Source: a virus. From it: DNA of 32,750 bases. The translations under genes and the position numbers were made by a program. A model generated the notes under the pieces. It saw only the letters and a program-made list of their open reading frames with translations. It searched no databases and was not told where the DNA came from. The DNA is taken from positions 1 to 32,750 of IMG/VR virus record IMGVR_UViG_3300044970_002227; one strand, written 5' to 3'. This document shows, one piece after another, positions 1 through 32,566 of the stretch (the stretch's first letter is position 1; the number at the start of each line of letters is the position of its first letter).

Positions 1-22
1 GGTTCGAATCCCTCCGGCTCCA
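1..22 (+). tRNA. 3' end of a tRNA or tRNA-like gene (truncated by window edge)
   Basis: The first bases read as a T-loop TTCGAAT (3-9), the 3' half of the T-stem CCCTC (10-14), the 3' half of an acceptor stem CGGCTCC (15-21) and discriminator A (22). No complete CCA follows (the next bases are CAA). The 5' part lies outside the window, so the amino acid is unknown, and the end of a tmRNA cannot be excluded because tmRNA ends in the same kind of T-arm and acceptor. It may be a phage-borne tRNA or a host tRNA beside an integration site. The integrase is 24 kb away, which favours a phage-borne tRNA. Confidence 0.5.
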
Positions 23-107
23 CAAAAGGGTAAAATGGTATTGCATTGGCATTAACAGGATCGCATCCATATAGACCACTGCATTAGTTTTACTCTTGCT
101 CCATAAA

Positions 108-5752: not shown

Positions 5753-6313
5753 ATGAATCCTAAATCGGATATGATCGATGTTTACCAGGCCATTGCCACC
5801 GGTCTCCGTAAGGGAACCGATAAGCAAAAAGAGCAGGTAAACCGGATGAGAGCAGCTTTCTGCCTTGTTGCTGCCGGCTATTCGATTATGAAGGCAGCCG
5901 AGCAACTGGAAAAGCAGTTTGATCTCAGCATCCAGCAATCGGCCAACATAGTTTCACAGGCTCTCAAAGTATTTGGCAAAGCCGATGCCCACATGCGGCA
6001 GGGCATGAAGTATGCGGGATACGAAAACCTAATGCGGCTGGCAAAGCTCGCCGAGGAAGATGAGGACTATGTAACGGCCCGACTCCTTATCAAAGATGCC
6101 CACGAACTCATGGGGCTGCACGAGGAGGAAGTAGGCGGCTACGAAAATCCAGAGGACTACATGCAGCCGACCAAATACATCTACACAGATGATCCGGCCA
6201 TGCTCAATGCCGCCAAACGGATTCTCACGCTTGATATTCAGGCTGAAGATGCCGAAATAGTAAACGAAGAAGATGCCGAAGGAAGTAGCAGCGATAATTC
6301 CACTGAACAGTAA
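5753..6313 (+). CDS. Probable terminase small subunit
   Basis: This 186-residue protein has a helical N-terminal region (20-75) that contains a helix-turn-helix-like stretch: AAFCLVAAGYSIMKAAEQLEKQF followed by SIQQSANIVSQALKVFG. The tail is acidic. Small terminase subunits recognise the packaging site and hand the DNA to the large subunit. The gene is directly upstream of the large subunit and overlaps it by 41 bp in another frame, which strongly supports the assignment. The C-terminal 30 residues (Glu/Asp/Ser-rich) may be the contact to the large subunit. The length is normal for the family. The sequence is not a close match to any subunit I can recall. Confidence 0.75.
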   Translation: MNPKSDMIDVYQAIATGLRKGTDKQKEQVNRMRAAFCLVAAGYSIMKAAEQLEKQFDLSIQQSANIVSQALKVFGKADAHMRQGMKYAGYENLMRLAKLAEEDEDYVTARLLIKDAHELMGLHEEEVGGYENPEDYMQPTKYIYTDDPAMLNAAKRILTLDIQAEDAEIVNEEDAEGSSSDNSTEQ

Positions 6314-7805
6314 GCAGAAGCAGTTTCTGCTTTCTCCAGCGAAGTATAAAGCACTCATTGCTGGCCGTGGCTTTGGCAAAACCCATACACTGGGGCACCG
6401 GCAGTTTCAACTGGCGCAAAACCTTCCATCCGGAAAAAGCCTGATTGTGGCTCCAACTTTTGGTCAATTATTGACCAAAACAATGCCGGAAGTGGAAGCC
6501 GTTTGGCATTCTTTGAATCTTTTCGAATGGGATCCGAAGCGAAAGACCGGCCACTATGTTTTTGGTAAAAAACCACCTGGGCACTGGGCCAAACCATTGA
6601 AAGGCCCAAAGAAATACGAATACGCTTACTCATTCATTAATGGCCACGTAAAAGAACTGGCCAGCCTGGAGCAAAACGACCATGCCCGGGGTGGAAGCTT
6701 CGACTCGCTCGATGGAGATGAATCCGCACTTTTTAAGGAAGAAGTCTGGAACAAAATTTTTGTGAACTCCGTGCGGGGCCGGTTGGTAGGTAAAGACCGC
6801 TGGGATCCGGTAAAGAATTACCTCTCCGGCTCCATCTGCCACTACACCTCTGCACCATGGCGTACCGAAGGTAAATGGATTTGGAAATGGCGGGAACTGA
6901 TGGAGCGCAATCCAAAAGACTACCTGCTGGTTTCCGGCACCACCCTGGACAACATCAATATCCTGGGCGAAGAGTACATCGAAAGGCTCCGGCAAAACCT
7001 AAGCCCTCTGGAGTTTTACATTGAGGTATTGAACGGAGAACTCAAACGCCAGGCAGGTGGAGGATTTTACCCTGCATTCAATGAGGAGCGGCACACCACG
7101 CTTACCACATTCGAATACGATTGGGATACCAACGGCCGCATGACTATAAAGCGAGACAGCTTTATAGATGCCCAGAAGTTCTTCATGCTATCCATGGATT
7201 TCAACGTATCGTTTACCTCCATGATTGTTTGCCAGCAGATCCAGCATCCCAGCTTCCAGGAGTTTCGAATCTGTGATAATGTATTTGTAAAGCCGGATCC
7301 CATTAAAGACAAGGAGGGCGAAATGCTGATCGATACATTGGTAGATGAGTTTTGCCATAAGTACGCAGCACACCCCATTAAGTACATTGAGCTTTACGGC
7401 GATGCCTCGGCCAACAACCGGCGCATCGGTGCCCCGCCAATGTTCGAGCAAGCCAAAGCACGTTTCCGCCACCACGGATGGAGCGCAGTAATCAAGGCCG
7501 CAGGTAAACTGCCGGGGCACGAGCAACGCCACATCCTTATCAATAACATCCTGAGCCGAAGAGATAGCAGCTACCCGGTGCTTATGATCAACGCCAACAA
7601 CTGCAAGGCCACCATCCTTTCAATTACCAATGCGCCCATCACCAAGGATTTCAAAAAGGATAAGCGCAGCGAAACCCAGAACATAGACCAGGAGCTGGCC
7701 ACCCACCTATCCGATTGTGTAGACTACATTCTTTGCAGCCTTTACTCCCGACTGATTAACGGAGACAGTGGAGAGCTATGGAGTACGTTTATGCCTGGGC
7801 GGTAG
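6273..7805 (+). CDS. terL: Terminase large subunit
   Basis: This 510-residue protein is the ATP-driven packaging motor and headful/cos nuclease. Walker A is AGRGFGKT (30-37). The Walker B segment is SFDSLDGDES (142-151) with acidic D149/E150. An STS-like coupling motif is seen at TSAPW (192-196). The C-terminal RNase H-like nuclease has candidate metal-binding aspartates in SMDF (D309), LYGDAS (D377) and SDCVDYI (D481/D484). The length is typical of intact large terminases. The ATG at 6273 lies within the small-subunit gene and suggests translational coupling. The gene ends before an AT-rich terminator-like hairpin. Confidence 0.93.
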   Translation: MPKEVAAIIPLNSKQKQFLLSPAKYKALIAGRGFGKTHTLGHRQFQLAQNLPSGKSLIVAPTFGQLLTKTMPEVEAVWHSLNLFEWDPKRKTGHYVFGKKPPGHWAKPLKGPKKYEYAYSFINGHVKELASLEQNDHARGGSFDSLDGDESALFKEEVWNKIFVNSVRGRLVGKDRWDPVKNYLSGSICHYTSAPWRTEGKWIWKWRELMERNPKDYLLVSGTTLDNINILGEEYIERLRQNLSPLEFYIEVLNGELKRQAGGGFYPAFNEERHTTLTTFEYDWDTNGRMTIKRDSFIDAQKFFMLSMDFNVSFTSMIVCQQIQHPSFQEFRICDNVFVKPDPIKDKEGEMLIDTLVDEFCHKYAAHPIKYIELYGDASANNRRIGAPPMFEQAKARFRHHGWSAVIKAAGKLPGHEQRHILINNILSRRDSSYPVLMINANNCKATILSITNAPITKDFKKDKRSETQNIDQELATHLSDCVDYILCSLYSRLINGDSGELWSTFMPGR

Positions 7806-21324: not shown

Positions 21325-23808
21325 ATGGCAGGAAAAGCAACAGAAACGCAGGTTAATCTCAAGATTAACGGGCAGGAAGCCAGCAATACCATTGCCGGTT
21401 TACAATCCGATGTTAAGACTTTGAGCAAAGAACTTCGGCAGCTCCCGGCCGATACCGAAGCTTTTAAGCAAAAAGCCAAAGAGCTGGGCGAAGCACAGAA
21501 CCGGCTGCAAGGCATTCGGGATGATGCCAAAAAAGTACGGGATCAAATGAAAGCCCTCGGCGATGATGCCAAAACGGCCCGGGCCGATCTGCTTTCGATG
21601 TCTCCAGTGGGTGGAATGCTCCAAAACTTTACGCAGGGGTGGACCGCAGTACGCACAGCGATCGCTGCAAACGTAGCCGCCATGGGCTTACTGAGGGTGG
21701 CCATTATCGCTACCGGAATTGGTGCGCTGGTGGTGGCCGTTGGTGCTTTGTACACCTACTTTACAAGAACCGATGAAGGAGCCGTAAAGCTGGCTGGTGC
21801 CATGAAGGGGCTGGAGATCATTTTCAAAACCATTACTGATGTGGTGGCCAAGCTGGGAGAATGGATTTTTAAGGCTTTCGACAATCCAAAGCAAGCCATC
21901 AAAGATTTGGGCGATCTGATCCTTACCAATCTGGTAAACCGGGTAAAGGCTTTTGCTGTGATCTTCCAGGCCATTGCCGATATGGACCTGAAAAAGCTTA
22001 CCGACGGTACAATACAGCTTGCCTCCGGTGTGGAAAACGTAACCGACAAGGTAAAGCAGTTTGGAAACGAAATAGATGCCGCCATAAAGAAGGGCGCAGC
22101 CTTTGCCCAGCTTGCCGATCAGATTGATGAGGCTGAAACGAAGCAAATAGTAAATAATGCCAAAGCGGAGGAGCAAATCAGCCGGCTGCTGCTTCAGGCA
22201 AAAGACCGCACCAAAACGGAAGGTGAGCGGCTTATGCTTTTGGATCGTGCCTCAGCTCTGGAACGGCAGCGGCTGGAGGAATCCATTGCCTTACAGGCTC
22301 AAAAGGTTGAACTGGCTAAACAAGATTTAGCCAGTGTGGCAAAAGGCTCTGCCGAGGAGGATGAGAAGAAACGGAAACTGGCAGAATCTGAGGCTGCACT
22401 TATTGAACTCCGGAAATCATCCATCGATTTGCAGGAAAAAATTACCAACCGGAGAAATGCGCTGATCGATGGCGAAGCCGCCAAAGCCAAAGCCCTGAAA
22501 GATGCCGAAGAGAAAGCCCAGGAGGAGGCAGACAAAGCCGATCTGGAATATCAGAGGCGGTTAAGCGATTTACGAATTGCCAACGTAGTAGATGAGGATG
22601 AGCGCAAGCGGCTAGTGATCCTTAATAATTACAAACGAGGTCTGGAAGATGCGTTTTTAAATGGCCAGCTTACCAAAGATCTGGAGTTGGAATTGGTTAC
22701 GGCCAGAGATCAGGCATTAGATGCGCTGGATGCCCAGCTTGAAGAAAAAAAAGCAAAGGCCCAAAAGGACAAGGAGGATAAGGCCCTGGCCAATGAAGCT
22801 GCCAAACTTGAAATAGAAAATGAACGCAGGCTGCTGGCCGCAGATGCGGTGATAGAGGCCGAGGAGCTGAAGGAACAGAGGTTATATGAAGTTCAACGTA
22901 TGGGATTGAATAACCGGTTGACTCTGATTCAAAATGCCGGAAGGTCAGAATCTACGGAGGCTCAAAAAATTGCGCTGGAAATTGAGAAACTGGATGCCGA
23001 GCATTACAAAAAGAGGGATGATTTGGCAAAAAAATCGGCTGAATTTGAAAGGCAAATGGGCAACAAGCGGCTGGATTTCTTCGGGGGCATGGTTGGTGGT
23101 ATTGCCGATTTATTGAAATCAGACGAAGGGAACCGAAAGAAAAATGCCGATGCTATTAAAGCCTTTACCATTGCCGAAATTGTAACGCTTGGGATAAAAG
23201 AGGTGGCCGGTATTTGGAGCAACTCTAACATTAATGCCCTTAATGCCCTGATCCCGGGATGGGGGCCAGCCTTTGCGGCCGTTCAAACAGGAATGGCCGT
23301 GGCACGTACTGCCATCGGCATAAAAAATGCGGTCTCTCAGAGATTTGAAACCGGTGGAACTATCACACCTAAAGGCGGCACTCTAAACGCTGGCCAGCGG
23401 CACAGCTCTGGCGGCATTCATTTGTACGATGGCCTTACCGGTGATCACCTGGGCGAAGTAGAAAGGGGAGAAGCCCTGCACGTGTACAGCCGCAGCACGG
23501 TGCAAAATAATGGAGAGGTAATCAATGCTCTGCTGGATTCCAGCTTGTACCGTGGCGGGGCACCTATTGGCTCCGGCTCTCGCAAGTTTGAAACCGGTGG
23601 CATCATTGATGTAGCCAGCCGATCCGGAGCCGGTGGCGATGCGGCAGCGGCAAACAACGCTATGAGTATGGCACTGCTTTCCGAGATCAAAGGTTTGCGG
23701 GGCGATTTTCAGAATTTCCCACGGGTTTTACATGCTCGGGTAGATTACGAGCAAAACAACCGGGTGGCCATGCAGGCCGCTGAGATTGAAGCGGGGGCAG
23801 ATGCTTAA
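21325..23808 (+). CDS. Tail tape-measure protein
   Basis: This 827-residue protein has the typical tape-measure plan: an N-terminal coiled-coil region (15-90), a hydrophobic patch of two or more membrane-like helices (about 110-150, AAMGLLRVAIIATGIGALVVAVGALYTYF is split here by turns), a very long Lys/Glu/Ala coiled coil (about 250-560), and a C-terminal Gly-rich part with FETGG repeats (FETGGTITPKGGTLNAGQRHSSGG and FETGGIIDVASRSG). Its length sets the tail length and it may help DNA entry. The tail would be a medium-length one. The stop overlaps the stop of the integrase gene on the other strand. Confidence 0.9.
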   Translation: MAGKATETQVNLKINGQEASNTIAGLQSDVKTLSKELRQLPADTEAFKQKAKELGEAQNRLQGIRDDAKKVRDQMKALGDDAKTARADLLSMSPVGGMLQNFTQGWTAVRTAIAANVAAMGLLRVAIIATGIGALVVAVGALYTYFTRTDEGAVKLAGAMKGLEIIFKTITDVVAKLGEWIFKAFDNPKQAIKDLGDLILTNLVNRVKAFAVIFQAIADMDLKKLTDGTIQLASGVENVTDKVKQFGNEIDAAIKKGAAFAQLADQIDEAETKQIVNNAKAEEQISRLLLQAKDRTKTEGERLMLLDRASALERQRLEESIALQAQKVELAKQDLASVAKGSAEEDEKKRKLAESEAALIELRKSSIDLQEKITNRRNALIDGEAAKAKALKDAEEKAQEEADKADLEYQRRLSDLRIANVVDEDERKRLVILNNYKRGLEDAFLNGQLTKDLELELVTARDQALDALDAQLEEKKAKAQKDKEDKALANEAAKLEIENERRLLAADAVIEAEELKEQRLYEVQRMGLNNRLTLIQNAGRSESTEAQKIALEIEKLDAEHYKKRDDLAKKSAEFERQMGNKRLDFFGGMVGGIADLLKSDEGNRKKNADAIKAFTIAEIVTLGIKEVAGIWSNSNINALNALIPGWGPAFAAVQTGMAVARTAIGIKNAVSQRFETGGTITPKGGTLNAGQRHSSGGIHLYDGLTGDHLGEVERGEALHVYSRSTVQNNGEVINALLDSSLYRGGAPIGSGSRKFETGGIIDVASRSGAGGDAAAANNAMSMALLSEIKGLRGDFQNFPRVLHARVDYEQNNRVAMQAAEIEAGADA

Positions 23809-25100
23809 TACTCCGGCCAGTTGCCAAGGAACTGATCCGTTTTATTAATCAGGCCCATGTTAATCAGGTACTCTTCGGTTTGGCTGGCCGATTCGTGGCC
23901 AATCAGTACCTGGATAATGCTTACCGGCACTCCGGCTTTGTAGGCCATAATGGCTCCGGTATGCTTAAAGGCATAAAGCGTATGCCGGTTTTTGTCAATT
24001 TTACAAGCCGCAAGGTACTTTTGGAGGTAATCGTAGAAATGAGTGGAGGTGTACGGGTTTGGGCCAGGTGAGCCACCCTTGCCGAATACGTAATACTCCT
24101 CCGGATACTGCCGTAGCTGGTGTTTTTTTATTAGTTTTTCAAGCGGTGGCAAAATGGGCACGGTGCGCCCTCCGGTTTTTCCCCGCTCTTTTGGGATGAA
24201 AATGCTCTTTTCCCTGATCTCCTTTACCTGGAGAAAATGCAGCTCTTTCCGTGGCCTTGCCAGTGTGTACAGGCAGAAGTCAATAAACAGGCACCACTGC
24301 GGGTTTCCATCTTTTTCGGCTGCAGCCTTTAGCTTACCGATGGCTTCCATGCTAAATGGAATGTTACTTTCGCCTTTGGGCACCCGTTTCTTTGGCACCC
24401 GGCTGGCATAGTTTACCGGCACCACATCCACCAGCACCATGTGCGCCACCGTGGAGGAAATAATGCCCAGGTATTCGTTGTAGGTTTTGGGGCCAAAGCG
24501 TTTTTTCTTGTGCATCCAGTCCATAATGGCCAGATAATCCATCACCCGCATAGTGGACAGGAGAGGAGGCTTTTTTTTGCCGTAAAATGCCGACACCAAG
24601 CCCATAATGTACTGATGAGTGCGCTTCCAGTTACGGCTGAGATCGGCCTCCTTCCTTTCAAACACATGAGCAAGGGCATCGGTAAGGGTAAAGTTTTTAA
24701 ATGGGCTGGTTTCCTTTTTTTTTCGGGGTGGGCTGGCATCAATGGGCTTTACTGCCAACTGCCTCCGCATCCATGCCATAATCTTTTCGGCATAGGCATA
24801 CCGCTCTTGTGCCGTGGGCAGCTTGTTTAGGCCGGAGGTAAACTTCCTTCGCTTAATTTTTTTGTTTACAGCATCCCAGGCTCCAAATTCAATGTACCAG
24901 ATCTGCGATACATCGCCACCACGATCATTAAGAACAGGATCTTTGGTTCGTTTTGCCAATTTCAGGGAAGAAAAAGCGGCGCCAAAAAGTGCGCCAAAAA
25001 GTGCGCCAAAAGTTTTTGTATTTTCTAACTCTGTAAAGTACAGAAGGTTAAGTAGTGAACCATACTGGATTCGAACTACCTCTAACAGCATGTTTTTCAC
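23805..25100 (-). CDS. int: Tyrosine recombinase (phage integrase)
   Basis: This 431-residue protein carries out site-specific integration and excision. An arm-binding-like region (45-120) and a SAM-like core domain (135-240) precede the catalytic domain. Visible catalytic residues: Arg in ARPRKEL (R282 or R284), Lys in ERGKTGGRTVPI (K308), a modified box II YAFKHTGA (376-383), in which the usual His-x-x-Arg is Tyr-x-x-Lys, H402 in GHES and nucleophile Y411 in TEEYLI. The first 45 residues include FGALFGALFGAAF, coded by a 12-bp tandem repeat. No other ATG exists before residue 104, so this extension may be real. The gene converges on the tape-measure gene, with the two stops overlapping. Confidence 0.88.
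   Translation of the reverse strand: MKNMLLEVVRIQYGSLLNLLYFTELENTKTFGALFGALFGAAFSSLKLAKRTKDPVLNDRGGDVSQIWYIEFGAWDAVNKKIKRRKFTSGLNKLPTAQERYAYAEKIMAWMRRQLAVKPIDASPPRKKKETSPFKNFTLTDALAHVFERKEADLSRNWKRTHQYIMGLVSAFYGKKKPPLLSTMRVMDYLAIMDWMHKKKRFGPKTYNEYLGIISSTVAHMVLVDVVPVNYASRVPKKRVPKGESNIPFSMEAIGKLKAAAEKDGNPQWCLFIDFCLYTLARPRKELHFLQVKEIREKSIFIPKERGKTGGRTVPILPPLEKLIKKHQLRQYPEEYYVFGKGGSPGPNPYTSTHFYDYLQKYLAACKIDKNRHTLYAFKHTGAIMAYKAGVPVSIIQVLIGHESASQTEEYLINMGLINKTDQFLGNWPEY
24979..25014. repeat. Three tandem 12-bp units inside the 5' end of int
   Basis: Units GCGCCAAAAAGT (24979-24990), GCGCCAAAAAGT (24991-25002) and GCGCCAAAAGTT (25003-25014) are in frame and encode FGALFGALFGAA. A further TGCGCCAAAA lies at 25173-25182, upstream of int. 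They are candidates for integrase arm-type sites, or a simple coding repeat. Confidence 0.7.
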
Positions 25101-25188: not shown

Positions 25189-25605
25189 CTATTTATTGGC
25201 ATTTGGGAAGTGTTTAATAATAAAAGCTTTGAGCTTTTCATTTTCCTCCTTAAAGGCTTCAAGCTCTTTCTGTATGCGAAGGTTTTCGCTCATAAGAAGC
25301 AGTGGTGGAAGCATAACATCCTCATTATTAAAGCTGAATGATGGTTCTTGCAGGACGTTTTCGGCAGTAACCTCCTTTCGGAAAAACCGATCCCATTCCG
25401 AGGAAGGAATGTCAGTATTAAAGATGGCCGGATCAATGTTATACACCCGGCAAATCATTCCTGCATCGGTCATTGATAGGCGATTTCGCCCGTTTTCTAT
25501 GTCCGAATAGCCTCCCTGAGTAAGGCCCAACACATCGCCCATCGCCTTTTGAGTAATCCCCAGACGCTGGCGAATGAACTTTAGAGCATAATTTTTACCG
25601 CTCAT
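25189..25605 (-). CDS. XRE-family repressor (probable CI-like)
   Basis: This 138-residue protein has an N-terminal HTH of the XRE type (residues 8-60: FIRQRLGITQKAMGDVLGLT, GGYSDIENGRNRLSM). The C-terminal part (95-138) is a helical coiled coil (LLLMSENLRIQKELEAFKEENEKL) for dimerisation; no S24-like self-cleavage domain is seen. It faces the early genes across a divergent operator region with inverted repeats and is therefore the likely lysogeny repressor. It is separated from int by 88 bp. Without a peptidase domain, induction could need an antirepressor such as the KilA-N protein (inference). Confidence 0.85.
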   Translation of the reverse strand: MSGKNYALKFIRQRLGITQKAMGDVLGLTQGGYSDIENGRNRLSMTDAGMICRVYNIDPAIFNTDIPSSEWDRFFRKEVTAENVLQEPSFSFNNEDVMLPPLLLMSENLRIQKELEAFKEENEKLKAFIIKHFPNANK

Positions 25606-27301: not shown

Positions 27302-28216
27302 ATGGGAACGCAAAACAGCTACATCCCAACTGCAAATGGCTATTTCTCCGGGATTGGAGGAATGGAAATCGGACTGATGGAGGCCGGTGTGAATGTGGTA
27401 CAGAGTCTGGATCTGGACCTGGATGCTATTGAGTGCATGAAACTGAACCCTCGGTATTTCGGCCACTCCATTACTCAATCGGATATTCGGAATGAAAAGG
27501 TATCGGGCCATGGTGATACGGATATTATTGTGGGCACCTATCCTTGTACGAAGTATTCCACCATTGCCGACATCCACGGCACCCGTACCGGCGATGATCT
27601 GTATCTCCATTTCTTCCGGTTTCTGGCTTTAAAGCTGCCTGAAATGTACATCCTGGAGAATGTACCGGGAATGCGAAAGTTTCAGGTGGTGATGGAGGCA
27701 ATGACGAAGCTGCCGGGGTATTACATCAATATGTTTTGCCCGGTGGAAACCACCAACTGGCTTCCTCAGAAACGGGATCGGCTTATTTTAATCGGTACCC
27801 GAAAACCATTTACTATATCATCTCCAACCAAGGCCACCCGGATTCCGAAAATGAGTGATGTGCTGGAAAAAAATCCGGTATATGAAATGCCCGAGTACGT
27901 GGTTTCCAGAATAAACGGCAAGTACAGGGATAAGCCGATTGTGGTGGATCCGGAATTGGTTAATGCTCTGGCTCCAACCTGTGTGGCGCACTATTCGAAA
28001 GACCTGGGCACCCGCCTGGTGAAGGACAAAAAGGCGAAACACGGGCTGCGTCCGTTCAGCATCCGGGAATACGCCCGGCTTCAAGGATTTCCCGATGATT
28101 TTATTCTACCCGAAAAGCGCAGCTCATACAAGCTTATTGGCAATGCTGTGCCCGTACCCATGGGCCGATGGGCGGGGGAACAGGCAATCAAATATTTCAA
28201 TCAAAAACAAGCCTGA
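27302..28216 (+). CDS. C5-cytosine DNA methyltransferase
   Basis: This 304-residue protein methylates cytosine in DNA at C5. Conserved motifs in order: I YFSGIGGMEIGLMEAG (14-29), IV with the catalytic Cys in TYPCTKYS (C82), VI ENVPG (119-123), VIII QKRDRL (156-161), IX RPFSIREYARLQGFP (250-264) and X KLIGNAVPVPMG (277-288). The target-recognition region (about 170-250) is short. Motif IV is YPC where PPC is commoner. No restriction enzyme is seen nearby, so it is an orphan that probably protects phage DNA from host restriction. It overlaps the next gene by 1 bp. Confidence 0.92.
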   Translation: MGTQNSYIPTANGYFSGIGGMEIGLMEAGVNVVQSLDLDLDAIECMKLNPRYFGHSITQSDIRNEKVSGHGDTDIIVGTYPCTKYSTIADIHGTRTGDDLYLHFFRFLALKLPEMYILENVPGMRKFQVVMEAMTKLPGYYINMFCPVETTNWLPQKRDRLILIGTRKPFTISSPTKATRIPKMSDVLEKNPVYEMPEYVVSRINGKYRDKPIVVDPELVNALAPTCVAHYSKDLGTRLVKDKKAKHGLRPFSIREYARLQGFPDDFILPEKRSSYKLIGNAVPVPMGRWAGEQAIKYFNQKQA

Positions 28217-28497
28217 TGAATCTACCAAAATGCAACCTAACCACCTGCACCCTGCGCAACAACTGCCAGCGGTACGATGCGGCCGGGAGCCACACGCCGA
28301 TAATGCCCTTTATGCCGGAAGGCGTGGTGCCTGAACCTAACAAACCCTACACCGGGCCGCTGAACGGCTGCGAAGATTACTGGCCGGTGGGCACCGGCAC
28401 CGAGTTTTTTGAGGGGAAGGCTACCAAAACCCCGATGCCGAAGGTTTCTATAAGTGATCAGGATCTATTGCATAAACAATTAATCCTATCCGCATGA
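28216..28497 (+). CDS. Small Cys-rich protein of unknown function
   Basis: This 93-residue protein starts at ATG 28216, overlapping the methyltransferase stop (TGATG). The N-terminus has Cys at CNLTTCTLRNNCQRY (about 6-18), with C-x5-C-x5-C spacing, and a fourth Cys in LNGCEDYW (52). This could be a metal or disulfide cluster, but no family is recognised. It overlaps the following DnaB-N-like gene by 4 bp. Confidence 0.6.
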   Translation: MNLPKCNLTTCTLRNNCQRYDAAGSHTPIMPFMPEGVVPEPNKPYTGPLNGCEDYWPVGTGTEFFEGKATKTPMPKVSISDQDLLHKQLILSA

Positions 28498-29129
28498 TTT
28501 CAGAAAACCGAAAACTACTGGAATACCGGATCGTAGGCACCTGCCTGGTAGATCGGGCCAGCATTGCGGTAGTAACGCAGTACATCCATGTGCGGAATCT
28601 GGCCGATAACGATTCTGCAAGGGTACTCTCCTGGATGCTGGCCCACCCCGAATGCAACCGGATGGAAAACGATCAGCTTTTGCTCGCTGTAAAGCAGGAC
28701 ACGGGTGTAAAACCAATCGTTTTACTGCGAATGATAAAGGGTGGAGTTGTCTTACTGCCACTTCTCCAGTCCTGCTTTCATTTGTTGGAGTCTTGTTTCA
28801 GGGCCGAAGCAGCCCGCATTTTAAACCAGAACCGGGATAAGGCTCTGATACCTCTCGGCCCCATCGAAAAGGATATTGAAAACGAAGGGAATGAGGTATG
28901 GAGCATAATCACAGCAGCGGCCAATTACTGTAGCGATGCCGGTCTGGATAGTTTGGCCGATCAACTTTCAAATCTTCTAATTCAAATGAATCAAAAAGCC
29001 CTGATTTTAAAAGATACCCAGCGTACCGGAGCCATGGTAAACCAGCTCAAAGCAATTTCTCAGCAGGATCCGGCACAGATTAAACCATTTGTTCACGTTT
29101 TAAAGGAAATGGTTGATGCAAATAGATAA
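28494..29129 (+). CDS. DnaB N-terminal-domain-like protein
   Basis: This 211-residue protein resembles the N-terminal (primase/loader-interacting) domain of DnaB-type helicases: KLLEYRIVGTCLVDRASIAVVTQYIHVRNL, then DNDSARVLSWMLAHPEC and LLLAVKQDTGVKPIVLLRMI. The helicase domain itself is absent: no Walker A is present, and the C-terminal part (110-211) is helical. It overlaps the DUF3987 ATPase gene by 14 bp, so the two may form a split helicase/primase complex. It could otherwise be a helicase loader. Confidence 0.62.
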   Translation: MISENRKLLEYRIVGTCLVDRASIAVVTQYIHVRNLADNDSARVLSWMLAHPECNRMENDQLLLAVKQDTGVKPIVLLRMIKGGVVLLPLLQSCFHLLESCFRAEAARILNQNRDKALIPLGPIEKDIENEGNEVWSIITAAANYCSDAGLDSLADQLSNLLIQMNQKALILKDTQRTGAMVNQLKAISQQDPAQIKPFVHVLKEMVDANR

Positions 29130-30546
29130 GAGCTGGGAGGTTTATAAAACTCAAAGCAGAGATGTAAATCTGGAAATTGGTAGCAGCACCCTAAGCCGGG
29201 AGCAATTACTCAAAGAACTATTCAAACGTGAAAGCATAGAGGTATTTCCGCTGGAAATTTTTCCGATAGAACTGCACCACTATATTCAGGAGCTTACCGA
29301 GCGGCTGCACATTCCACGCTCTTTTGTCGGGCTTTTCCTGCTGGCCTCCGGCGGGGCAGCGGTTGGGAGCCACTATCTGGCAGAAGCCCACACGCAGCGC
29401 ACCTATCCGGCCATTTGGGCCTGTGCGGTTGGAGAAACCAGCTCCGGGAAAACTTTCTGCATGGATCGCCTTTTCGAAGTTTTTGAGGCCATTGATATGA
29501 ATATGGCCGGAGACAATTACCAGGATTACCAGAGCCGCTCCACTGCCGGGCAAATGGCCAATCAGGAAACGGATTACGAGGATTATGAGGAGAAAACCAT
29601 CATTTTTAAAAAAGGTACGTTTCCGGCCTTCTTGCAGAAAGCCCTGAAATCCAATCCGAAAGGAGTGATTCTTTGGAAGGAAGAGATCATTACCCTGATG
29701 GCCGAATTCCAGAAGAAGAACAACGAAGATTTTGAGCCCTTTCTTCTGGAGGCATGGAGCGCAAAGCGGCCATATAAGTACGATAAGGTAAGCATGCGCA
29801 GGGCGTTGATCATTCCACGCACGTTCACCACGCTGATCGGCACCACGCAGCCTGCCATGGTAAAGCGGATTTTTGGGCAGGATCGGGATTTTACCGGATT
29901 TACCTACCGGATGCTTTTTGCCCTGGATACGGATAACAAAACCCTTGTGCCAGACATTGACTTTGAGCCAAATCTGGAAGCATACAGCCGGTACGAGCAA
30001 ATGGTGCGCAGGTTGTACGAAGATCTTACCGTGGCATTGTATGGCATTAAGGCCGAAGAGCCGAAAATAGTAAAGTGCAGCCGAAAGGCCGTGGAGCTGC
30101 TGGACAAATGGAAGCGGATCCACAAGCAGAAAGCCGACAATTTGAAGGATGATGATGCCGTAAACCGGGAAACCTACAAGGGTGCCTTTGGTAAGCTGGG
30201 AGAATACGCCATACGCTTTGCGCTGATCCTTCGGTGTATGGATGAAGCCTGTAAAGCTTACGGCGATGTGCGGTGCATTCAGAGCATTGATGAGAGCGTA
30301 ATGGCCCGGGCACTTACGGCAGCCGATTACTTTATGTACTCCTATCTGGAGGTGGCGAAAATGGCCGACAGCCGGAGGCTCCCCGAGGAGGCCAGCATTA
30401 TATCCAACTGCATAAAGCGGGGAATGAGCTACTCAAAGATTGCTGAACACCTGGGCGAGATATACGGCAAGGGTTTCCAGAAATCCAGCATTTCCCGTAA
30501 GGTCATTAGCTACCGGAACAAGTACCCAAAAGACTTTTTAAACTAA
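29116..30546 (+). CDS. DUF3987-type replicative ATPase/helicase
   Basis: This 476-residue protein has Walker A GETSSGKT (106-113), Walker B-like GVILWKEE (183-190), a sensor-like LIGTTQP (240-246) and a possible arginine finger in GFTYRMLFAL (R265). These match DUF3987, found in phage and plasmid primase/helicase proteins. The C-terminus (about 425-476: SIISNCIKRGMSYSKIAEHL, SISRKVISYR) is a helix-turn-helix-like DNA-binding tail. It starts inside the preceding gene, and the stop is followed directly by the inverted-repeat region. The function is to unwind DNA at the phage origin. Confidence 0.82.
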   Translation: MQIDKSWEVYKTQSRDVNLEIGSSTLSREQLLKELFKRESIEVFPLEIFPIELHHYIQELTERLHIPRSFVGLFLLASGGAAVGSHYLAEAHTQRTYPAIWACAVGETSSGKTFCMDRLFEVFEAIDMNMAGDNYQDYQSRSTAGQMANQETDYEDYEEKTIIFKKGTFPAFLQKALKSNPKGVILWKEEIITLMAEFQKKNNEDFEPFLLEAWSAKRPYKYDKVSMRRALIIPRTFTTLIGTTQPAMVKRIFGQDRDFTGFTYRMLFALDTDNKTLVPDIDFEPNLEAYSRYEQMVRRLYEDLTVALYGIKAEEPKIVKCSRKAVELLDKWKRIHKQKADNLKDDDAVNRETYKGAFGKLGEYAIRFALILRCMDEACKAYGDVRCIQSIDESVMARALTAADYFMYSYLEVAKMADSRRLPEEASIISNCIKRGMSYSKIAEHLGEIYGKGFQKSSISRKVISYRNKYPKDFLN

Positions 30547-30557
30547 AAAGTACAATG

Positions 30558-30883
30558 AAAAAAAATGGGACGGTACAAAACCAGTCAAAACCGCTGATAG
30601 CCAGTAAATTAAACCCCATAACATTGGACCATTTCGTCCCAAATGGAGAAATTTCAAAACCGTATCTTATTGATAATATGAATATTATGCAAAAACCAGC
30701 GTCCCAAAATTTGGGACAAAAAACGTCCCAAAAAATGGGACGGCCATTTTTACACAAACAACTGAAATAAAGAAAGTTACCATTTTTTAAAACACAGAAA
30801 TGGGACGAAATGGTCCAATGTTATGAGACTTAAAAAACAATGAATCAATAAGTTAAGTGCATAGAGTACCGTCCCATTTTTTT
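30558..30883. repeat. Nested inverted-repeat array with eight TGGGAC sites (candidate origin or operator)
   Basis: An outer perfect 18-bp inverted repeat (30559-30576 and 30866-30883) encloses a perfect 25-bp inverted repeat (30617-30641 and 30801-30825), which encloses two short palindromes: GTCCCAAAATTTGGGAC (30701-30717) and CGTCCCA/TGGGACG (30724-30730/30736-30742). All arms carry the hexamer TGGGAC or its complement, eight copies in about 310 bp, in the order + - - + - + + -. The DNA between the arms is A/T-rich (30642-30700, 30743-30800). ACAATG flanks both ends (30552-30557, 30884-30889). It lies between the helicase gene and the next gene. Candidates are a replication origin, a repressor operator, a structured RNA or a MITE-like insertion. 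Confidence 0.8.
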
Positions 30884-30897
30884 ACAATGTTCTTTTT

Positions 30898-31281
30898 ATG
30901 AAAAACATCCCACAAACTATATTTCTGCAAGTAGATCCGGCAGGCGAAAGGCCGGAAGATTTCAACCAAATTGGCGAGGCAACCTGGTGTAAAGACCGGA
31001 TCAACTCAAACGATCTGGAGTATGTAATTAAGCCAAAGGGCCAGATCAACATTAAGGCGGTTCGCCTTTTTGGTTTCAATTCTTTGCAGGACTGGGTAAA
31101 AGACTCAAACCGGATGCTGGATAAGTACCGCAAGCCGGGCGCACCTTTCGAATCTTCCCGGATTATTTATCTGGATGCGGAGGGATTTGCGTGCACCACT
31201 GGAGAAGATTTCAGGCAGGCCGAGGCAAACGGCACATTTCCGGTAACTGCATACCGATTATCCAAATCGCCAATACAATGA
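30898..31281 (+). CDS. Hypothetical protein downstream of the inverted-repeat array
   Basis: This 127-residue mixed alpha/beta protein has a helical segment DWVKDSNRMLDKYRKPG (about 63-79) and a last strand TFPVTAYRLSKSPIQ. The ATG at 30898 follows TTCTTTTT and is 15 bp after the end of the array, the last TGGGAC-type site being 22 bp upstream of the start. The gene could thus be controlled by whatever binds the repeats. It overlaps the next gene by 4 bp (ATGA-like overlap). No family is recognised. Confidence 0.65.
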   Translation: MKNIPQTIFLQVDPAGERPEDFNQIGEATWCKDRINSNDLEYVIKPKGQINIKAVRLFGFNSLQDWVKDSNRMLDKYRKPGAPFESSRIIYLDAEGFACTTGEDFRQAEANGTFPVTAYRLSKSPIQ

Positions 31282-31499
31282 GCAGCTTAAAACCCATCAT
31301 CGGCTACATGGTGTACACTTACCACAGGGGCCAAAAGGCAAAGTATTTTAAAGCCACCCGGCATGAAGCCTGGGATCTGGCAGAAGAGAAGCGGAAGGTA
31401 TGCCAGAGGGTGTATTTTAACTCTGTAACCCGGCTGGGGAAGCGGGATGCGACAAATTTGGAAACCAGCAGTATTTCTGTCCTTTCTGCGAATCGCTAA
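31278..31499 (+). CDS. Small basic hypothetical protein
   Basis: This 73-residue protein starts at ATG 31278, overlapping the preceding gene's stop; an earlier in-frame start (31191) would duplicate coding over that gene. Lys/Arg-rich: MSSLKPIIGYMVYTYHRGQ, then KAKYFKATRHEAWDLAEEKRK. Probably a small beta-alpha fold. No family is recognised. Confidence 0.6.
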   Translation: MSSLKPIIGYMVYTYHRGQKAKYFKATRHEAWDLAEEKRKVCQRVYFNSVTRLGKRDATNLETSSISVLSANR

Positions 31500-31531
31500 A
31501 ATCCGGATTTTCGGAAAACAAACCGCTGAAA

Positions 31532-32566
31532 ATGAACACAAAGGCCAACGAAATCCGAAAGATTCTGAACGCTCATTCTGGCAAAGTAACGTATGCAGCC
31601 ATTGCCGCTGCTGCCGACATTGCCGGAACTACATTCAACTACGCAAAAAAGGTGTGGTACAATCCAATCGAAACACCAACGCTGCACGAGCTTCCGGAGG
31701 TAGAAAGCGACAAAAAGGAAAGGGATTTTAACTGGCGGGAGTGGGTGCGCCCACTTCAGGAAATGCAGGAATTGCAGGGCCGTGCCAGCAATACGCAGGG
31801 AACGGCCAAAGTAAAGATTAATACTCGGAAGCCAATCTGCGTGGTGCTTATTGCCGACTGGCACCTGGGTAGCTGGGGCACTGATTACTCCCGGTTCATG
31901 GAGCTAACTGAGGAGATTAAAAACACCGAAAACCTTTATGTGATCATTGCCGGAGATATGACTCAAATGGCCATAAAAATGCGCTCAGTGATGGAGATAT
32001 CAGACAATGCCCTTAAACCAAAACTGCAATGGCTGTGGCTCGAAAGCTGGATGGAGGAGATCAAACACAAAGTAATTTGCTCAACTTGGGAGAATCACGC
32101 ACAGATGCGGGAAGAAAACGTGATTGGCTGGAGTCCATCGGCTGAAATAATGGCGCAAAAAACCATCCACTTTAATGGAATTGGGCATTTGGATTTAAAG
32201 GTGGGTACTCAAACGTACAAAATAGCGGTTTCGCATTTTTTCCGTGGATCCAGCATTTACAACCCATGCCATAGTCAGCAGCGTTATGGCAAGTTTGAGG
32301 GGCAGGACCGGGATATTATCATGAGCGGAGACACGCACACTTTTGGCCGGTTAAGTTACCGGGAGGGAGGCCGCAAGAAACTGGCACTCAACTGCGGAAG
32401 CCTTCAGGTAAACAGTGGGTATGCCAAGCGGTTCTTTTCGCTTACCACCCATCCGGATTTCCCATGTGTGGAGCTGCATCCGGATGAACACCTGATGGTA
32501 GACTTTGAATCGGTAGCCGCATGGTTAAAAAGCACCCGCAGAATGAAAAGGAAATTAGGGGCGTAA
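31532..32566 (+). CDS. HTH-calcineurin-like metallophosphoesterase
   Basis: This 344-residue protein has two parts. The N-terminus (5-45, ANEIRKILNAHSGKVTYAAIA and AAAADIAGTTFNYAKK) looks like a helix-turn-helix. The rest is a calcineurin-type phosphoesterase with two-metal motifs: D-x-H in LIADWHLG (D109, H111), GD in IIAGDM (D142), NH in ENHAQ (N188, H189), His in AVSHFF (H235) and a GDTH in MSGDTHTFGR (D267, H269). Such folds include Mre11/SbcD nucleases and cyclic-nucleotide or protein phosphatases; the substrate cannot be told. The HTH suggests it works on or near DNA. The start follows a 32-bp gap. Confidence 0.82.
   Translation: MNTKANEIRKILNAHSGKVTYAAIAAAADIAGTTFNYAKKVWYNPIETPTLHELPEVESDKKERDFNWREWVRPLQEMQELQGRASNTQGTAKVKINTRKPICVVLIADWHLGSWGTDYSRFMELTEEIKNTENLYVIIAGDMTQMAIKMRSVMEISDNALKPKLQWLWLESWMEEIKHKVICSTWENHAQMREENVIGWSPSAEIMAQKTIHFNGIGHLDLKVGTQTYKIAVSHFFRGSSIYNPCHSQQRYGKFEGQDRDIIMSGDTHTFGRLSYREGGRKKLALNCGSLQVNSGYAKRFFSLTTHPDFPCVELHPDEHLMVDFESVAAWLKSTRRMKRKLGA

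Follow-up and report, generated by a model that had tools for sequence, protein, structure and literature searches.

The window analysed here, the whole 32,750-bp stretch at positions 1 to 32,750 of the virus record IMGVR_UViG_3300044970_002227 (IMG/VR), carries an array of eight TGGGAC sites behind a gene for a DUF3987 ATPase, which ends 20 nt before the first site (Table 1). On the 3′ side the array is followed by a 127-aa gene with no assigned family and an exonuclease-like gene. Upstream lie the gene for a 211-aa protein, a C5 methyltransferase gene and a divergent repressor gene, and the large terminase gene is approximately 23 kb away. The first 25 nt of the window resemble the 3′ end of a tRNA gene (GGTTCGAATCCCTCCGGCTCCAC) and are likely a prophage attachment core; an integrase gene is also present.

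Table 1. Coordinates of the array, its sites and the genes discussed in the text
Feature	Coordinates	Strand	Remarks
Likely prophage attachment core	1-25		Resembles tRNA gene 3′ end
Large terminase gene	6273-7805		
Integrase gene	23805-25100		
Divergent repressor gene	25189-25605		Upstream of array
C5 methyltransferase gene	27302-28216		Upstream of 211-aa gene
211-aa protein, alternative binder/loader	28494-29129	+	Homologue (55% identical) at equivalent place in G003
DUF3987 ATPase, proposed initiator helicase	29113-30546	+	PF13148; PHROG DNA helicase
Helix-turn-helix-like C-terminal end, proposed site-binding domain	30421-30546	+	Residues 437-477
Whole two-fold symmetric array, proposed replication origin	30544-30898	.	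Centre 30721
Site 1, TGGGAC	30566-30571	+	CGGACC in G003
Extra TGGACC, left long arm	30625-30630	+	Identical in G003
Site 2, TGGGAC	30636-30641	-	TGGACC in G003
Site 3, TGGGAC	30701-30706	-	TGGACC in G003
Site 4, TGGGAC	30712-30717	+	TGGACC in G003
Site 5, TGGGAC	30725-30730	-	TGGACC in G003
Site 6, TGGGAC	30736-30741	+	CGGACC in G003
Site 7, TGGGAC	30801-30806	+	CGGACC in G003
Mirror TGGACC (GGTCCA), right long arm	30812-30817	-	Identical in G003
Site 8, TGGGAC	30871-30876	-	TGGACC in G003

An earlier note on this DNA had claimed eight copies of TGGGAC or GTCCCA in the orientation + - - + - + + -, nested in perfect inverted repeats of 18 and 25 bp. All eight are exact copies within 30566-30876, none occurs elsewhere in the window, and the site strands follow the claimed, two-fold symmetric order; the inverted repeats are likewise present, as the cores of 33-nt arms with 91% pairing. 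The sites are spaced by 70, 65, 11, 13, 11, 65, and 70 nt, so that all four pairs share the centre at 30721, and none of 1000 random arrays of equal size matched this symmetry. Of all hexamers in the window, GTCCCA clusters most strongly (Poisson log10P -11.5; the next -5.3). When every centre in the window was scored for the match of its 178-nt arms, 30721 ranked best with 109 (next 75; mean 44 +/- 6), and the outer arms extend across 30544-30898. We also considered avoidance of TGGGAC outside the array and rejected it, since GGGAC is scarce in both this phage and its sister phage (below) and the same absence is seen for 10 of 1815 hexamers.

The array is non-coding, as judged from the pattern of substitutions relative to the sister phage. 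Two open reading frames in this region, 30555-30770 (+) and 30506-30757 (-), were rejected as genes on the absence of third-position bias. It is present as a single copy in the virus record, and its DNA shows no similarity to known phages beyond a chance match of 22 bases. No sigma-70-like promoter was found in the array region by a scan that does not cover Bacteroidota promoters. The GC-skew curve does not turn at the array, a result that neither proves nor excludes an origin there. A search of open-access papers for TGGGAC or GTCCCA returned nothing relevant.

The protein encoded next to the array matches PF13148 at 94.7 bits (cut-off 27; 8.6e-27) and is thus a DUF3987 protein; it also matches a PHROG DNA helicase (6.5e-23). 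A role as helicase in the replication of mobile elements has been predicted for DUF3987 (PMC5862659). The Pfam scan of this ATPase gave DUF3987 only, with no D5/primase C-terminal domain and no DUF927. In its C-terminal end two helices are predicted at residues 440-451 and 457-470 from the sequence pattern and low-confidence models, and a fold search with these poor models gave no match. We found no solved structure of a DUF3987 relative.

Searching with the large terminase yielded one close relative, the 32,397-bp sister phage G003. Its DUF3987 protein is 88% identical to that of the window and is the best conserved protein shared by the two phages. In G003 the homologous array begins 267 nt past the DUF3987 gene, behind an additional 70-aa gene, and the gene 3′ of it is unrelated to the downstream gene in the window. 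The earlier note had named a same-helicase relative lacking the repeats as evidence against its reading; G003 carries them in the same symmetric layout, with five of five pairs kept, including the conserved TGGACC pair. The sites themselves all read YGGACC in place of TGGGAC. Motif positions 4-5 are altered at all eight sites while positions 2, 3, and 6 are retained at all eight, a change equally describable as one G lost and one C gained, the same at every site. Outside the sites the DNA of the array is 70% identical in the two phages. Because the genes flanking the array are not the same in the two phages, a single sequence-specific binder, and not a neighbouring gene, seems to maintain the sites. 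If all sites are recognised by one specific protein and its preference shifts, a concerted change of this kind would be expected. Four residues differ between the phages in the last 41 of the DUF3987 protein, and three of them (Q456T, S458T, and S461T) lie where the predicted second helix of the helix-turn-helix begins. With 3 of 8 residues exchanged, this clustering within the predicted recognition helix is no more than suggestive. Further sister arrays were sought through the conserved arm pattern, which returned only G003 and otherwise unrelated matches, and genome scans of GTDB found no homologues. The terminal stretches of G003 (1-1549 and 30846-32397 on its reverse complement) match each other at 91% over 1.55 kb, reflecting either a tandem duplication or variants joined in assembly.

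The array was also sought beside other DUF3987 genes, a check named in the earlier note, and distant loci often carry arrays of their own at the equivalent place. In an exploratory set of 15 DUF3987 loci, mostly 17-30% identical to each other, a motif-blind hexamer scan found the strongest array at the gene's 3′ end in nine, including both sister phages. The hexamers differ between elements: ACTGCA and CTGCAA in gut phages, ACTGAA in a Bacteroides xylanisolvens plasmid, GTCAAC in a Parabacteroides plasmid, and GCGACA, GGTCAA, and CCTCTA in cyanobacterial plasmids. A test region of 1250 bp was chosen on this set and fixed before a second set was obtained. Among the 14 further loci the array ranked first in eight (expected 1.53, P=3e-5), the cyanobacterial loci of this test being partly related to one another. 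About 40% of DUF3987 loci have no leading array at the 3′ end, including a whole clade (L274, L275, and L278), and the one PF13148 case among 100 array-bearing viral records also has none there. Several of the cyanobacterial arrays fall inside the 3′ part of the gene. Two-fold symmetry recurs in the arrays of L281, L300, and L303 and, more weakly, in those of L279, L280, L291, and L305. GAC or GTC is contained in 9 of the 17 leading hexamers (background 13.7%, P=1.4e-4 in this exploratory comparison), namely those of L281, L290, L292, L299, L303, L304, L309, and the two sister phages; the excess perhaps points to a core contact conserved in the binding domain. Two of the DUF3987 loci show further peculiarities. 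In an unverified gut phage record (L280:3642-4832) the DUF3987 frame is seemingly frameshifted, and the array starts at the broken 3′ end. The Gloeocapsa plasmid pGLO7428.02 (L307, 10111-11212), recorded as linear, has a protelomerase-family gene approximately 3 kb past DUF3987.

Many viral contigs contain TGGGAC clusters, often directly past genes for AAA_25 RepA-like helicases. As a widespread phage motif the hexamer was rejected: control hexamers gave similar counts, and the strict dyad pattern occurred 7 vs 7 times, so that TGGGAC itself is not special. The arrays at AAA_25 phage helicases are lineage-specific, lie beyond the gene's 3′ end at +16 to +140 nt, and were fetched by three different hexamers. 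Such 3′ arrays are found at L026, L050, L057, L065, and L113 and, fetched by control hexamers, at L135, L139, L155, L176, L234, and L249, many of these control loci looking like one phage lineage and hence not independent. Since loci fetched by control hexamers share the array placement, this placement belongs to the initiator helicases and not to the hexamer. Other TGGGAC clusters lie where the small terminase gene begins, ahead of a lambda gpA-type large terminase and near annotated or likely cos sites (L005, L010, L015, L027, L038, L063, L085, and others; L244 and L245), where they are possibly terminase binding sites. At L033 (7191-7940) and its relatives L044, L046, L051, L056, and L066, hexamer clusters sit inside an HTH_36 initiator-like gene and translate to repeated VPKLGT-like peptides, as in lambda O.

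We conclude that the array is very probably the replication origin of the phage. The earlier note had left the choice between an iteron-type origin and a multi-site operator. The origin is favoured because conservation does not extend to the genes beside the array, and arrays recur at DUF3987 loci; the operator is disfavoured. The fuller claim, that the origin is bound by DUF3987 itself as initiator helicase, we regard as likely. The helix-turn-helix at the C-terminal end of the protein would bind the eight TGGGAC(G) sites, and the ATPase would then assemble on the array, possibly as two oppositely facing hexamers. The A/T-rich spacer DNA would melt and forks would depart both ways. From the two-fold symmetry we infer that the array may suit two opposed hexamers and bidirectional firing.

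Several known systems resemble this arrangement in part. Iterons in the classical sense form tandem direct repeats, each some 17-22 bp long. The window shares with iteron plasmid origins the several copies of one site and the A/T-rich DNA beside a predicted initiator gene, whereas its 6-7 bp sites are inverted and symmetric and do not form direct repeats in one orientation. As in the lambda-type origin, which lies inside gene O, the array is physically tied to the initiator gene; unlike that origin it follows the gene and carries no coding signal, and lambda O is not a helicase. The AAA_25 (RepA-like) arrays likewise consist of element-specific hexamers beyond the gene's 3′ end, the hexamer being TGGGAC in several lineages, but the ATPase family differs and two-fold symmetry is absent from those AAA_25 arrays that were tested. 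Through a C-terminal domain, SaPI Rep and SCCmec Cch2 bind iterons located immediately 3′ of their own genes, Rep apparently as two hexamers (PMC7581432). The window similarly has short repeats directly 3′ of a predicted initiator-helicase gene, and the helix-turn-helix-like C-terminal end predicted for this helicase is a candidate binder. Its sites differ in being inverted hexamers with exact two-fold symmetry, those of Rep and Cch2 being direct repeats, and its ATPase is a DUF3987 protein outside the Rep/Cch ATPase families. Since Pfam finds DUF3987 only, the window ATPase may work like Rep and Cch without being a member of their families.

The same origin could be read by another protein, such as the 211-aa protein or a small phage protein that loads the DUF3987 helicase. 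The 211-aa gene adjoins DUF3987 in both phages and, at 55% identity, has diverged more, as a protein with shifted specificity might; in Bacteroidales elements a small helix-turn-helix gene lies directly upstream of DUF3987. Pfam and PHROG searches, however, gave the 211-aa protein no family match and no recognised DNA-binding domain, the arrays go with the helicase gene's 3′ end in different families, and the SaPI Rep and Cch2 helicases bind through their own C-terminal domain (PMC7581432). We therefore consider a separate binder unlikely. A multi-site operator, on which a repressor or activator would control the early genes, would account for the paired inverted sites, which are typical of dimeric regulators, and the phage does encode a repressor. 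Yet there is no exact TGGGAC near the repressor gene or elsewhere in the window, degenerate sites remaining possible; the promoter scan, limited as described above, was negative in the array region; and the downstream gene in G003 is unrelated, with an additional gene inserted upstream of the array. Array placement, moreover, follows helicase genes in unrelated elements, and control of the early genes from the array is improbable.

The long nested inverted repeats might also belong to a mobile or structural palindrome, either inserted like a MITE or folded back to serve as a rolling-circle origin. The large foldback suggested in the earlier note is energetically real (z -9.8). As a functional structure it is not supported, for arm pairing falls to 91/178 in G003 vs 109/178 in the window while the sites there remain symmetric. 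The homologous location in G003 and the concerted change of the sites also speak against a palindrome of this kind, as the single copy and the lack of similar DNA among known phages do against a MITE, and we hold this explanation to be very improbable. That the array is a packaging site (cos/pac) bound by the small terminase is suggested by some lambda-like phages, in which TGGGAC clusters lie near the small terminase start and in one case near an annotated cos end; with the large terminase so far from the array and TGGGAC absent near it, we give this reading very little credence. The methyltransferase encoded upstream raises the idea that the array is a cluster of its target sites, for example gating replication, and the G003 motif GGACC resembles known C5-methylase targets. 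But G003 has no homologue of this methyltransferase and keeps the array, which argues against methylation as the explanation, and GGACC is not rare outside its array (26 copies). A methylation role is barely credible.

An origin next to its own helicase gene is an architecture already known from staphylococcal elements. The new parts are that this architecture would extend to DUF3987, that all sites were rewritten in concert between two sister phages, and that two-fold symmetry recurs. A joint and broader proposition, that DUF3987 proteins form a broad class of initiator helicases with the origin at the 3′ end of their own gene and an element-specific, rewritable hexamer code, seems to us as apt to hold as to fail. 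If true, it would span phages, Bacteroidales elements, and cyanobacterial plasmids, with codes that are often GAC-cored and often two-fold symmetric. All sites and a few recognition-helix residues would be rewritten together, giving rapid change of replicon specificity. In cyanobacterial plasmids little is known of the replication proteins, and vectors are in demand (PMC10899382, PMC10079941). One cyanobacterial DUF3987 protein resembles, in its N-terminal part, the plasmid replication proteins of the CyRepA1 family. The two sister phages, with eight sites switched and few differences at the C-terminal end of the helicase, offer a ready system for the co-change of initiator and origin. For DUF3987, so far a domain of unknown function, the rule of a hexamer array at the 3′ end would supply an origin and a mechanism, and with them a direct test in many phages and plasmids, those of cyanobacteria among them.
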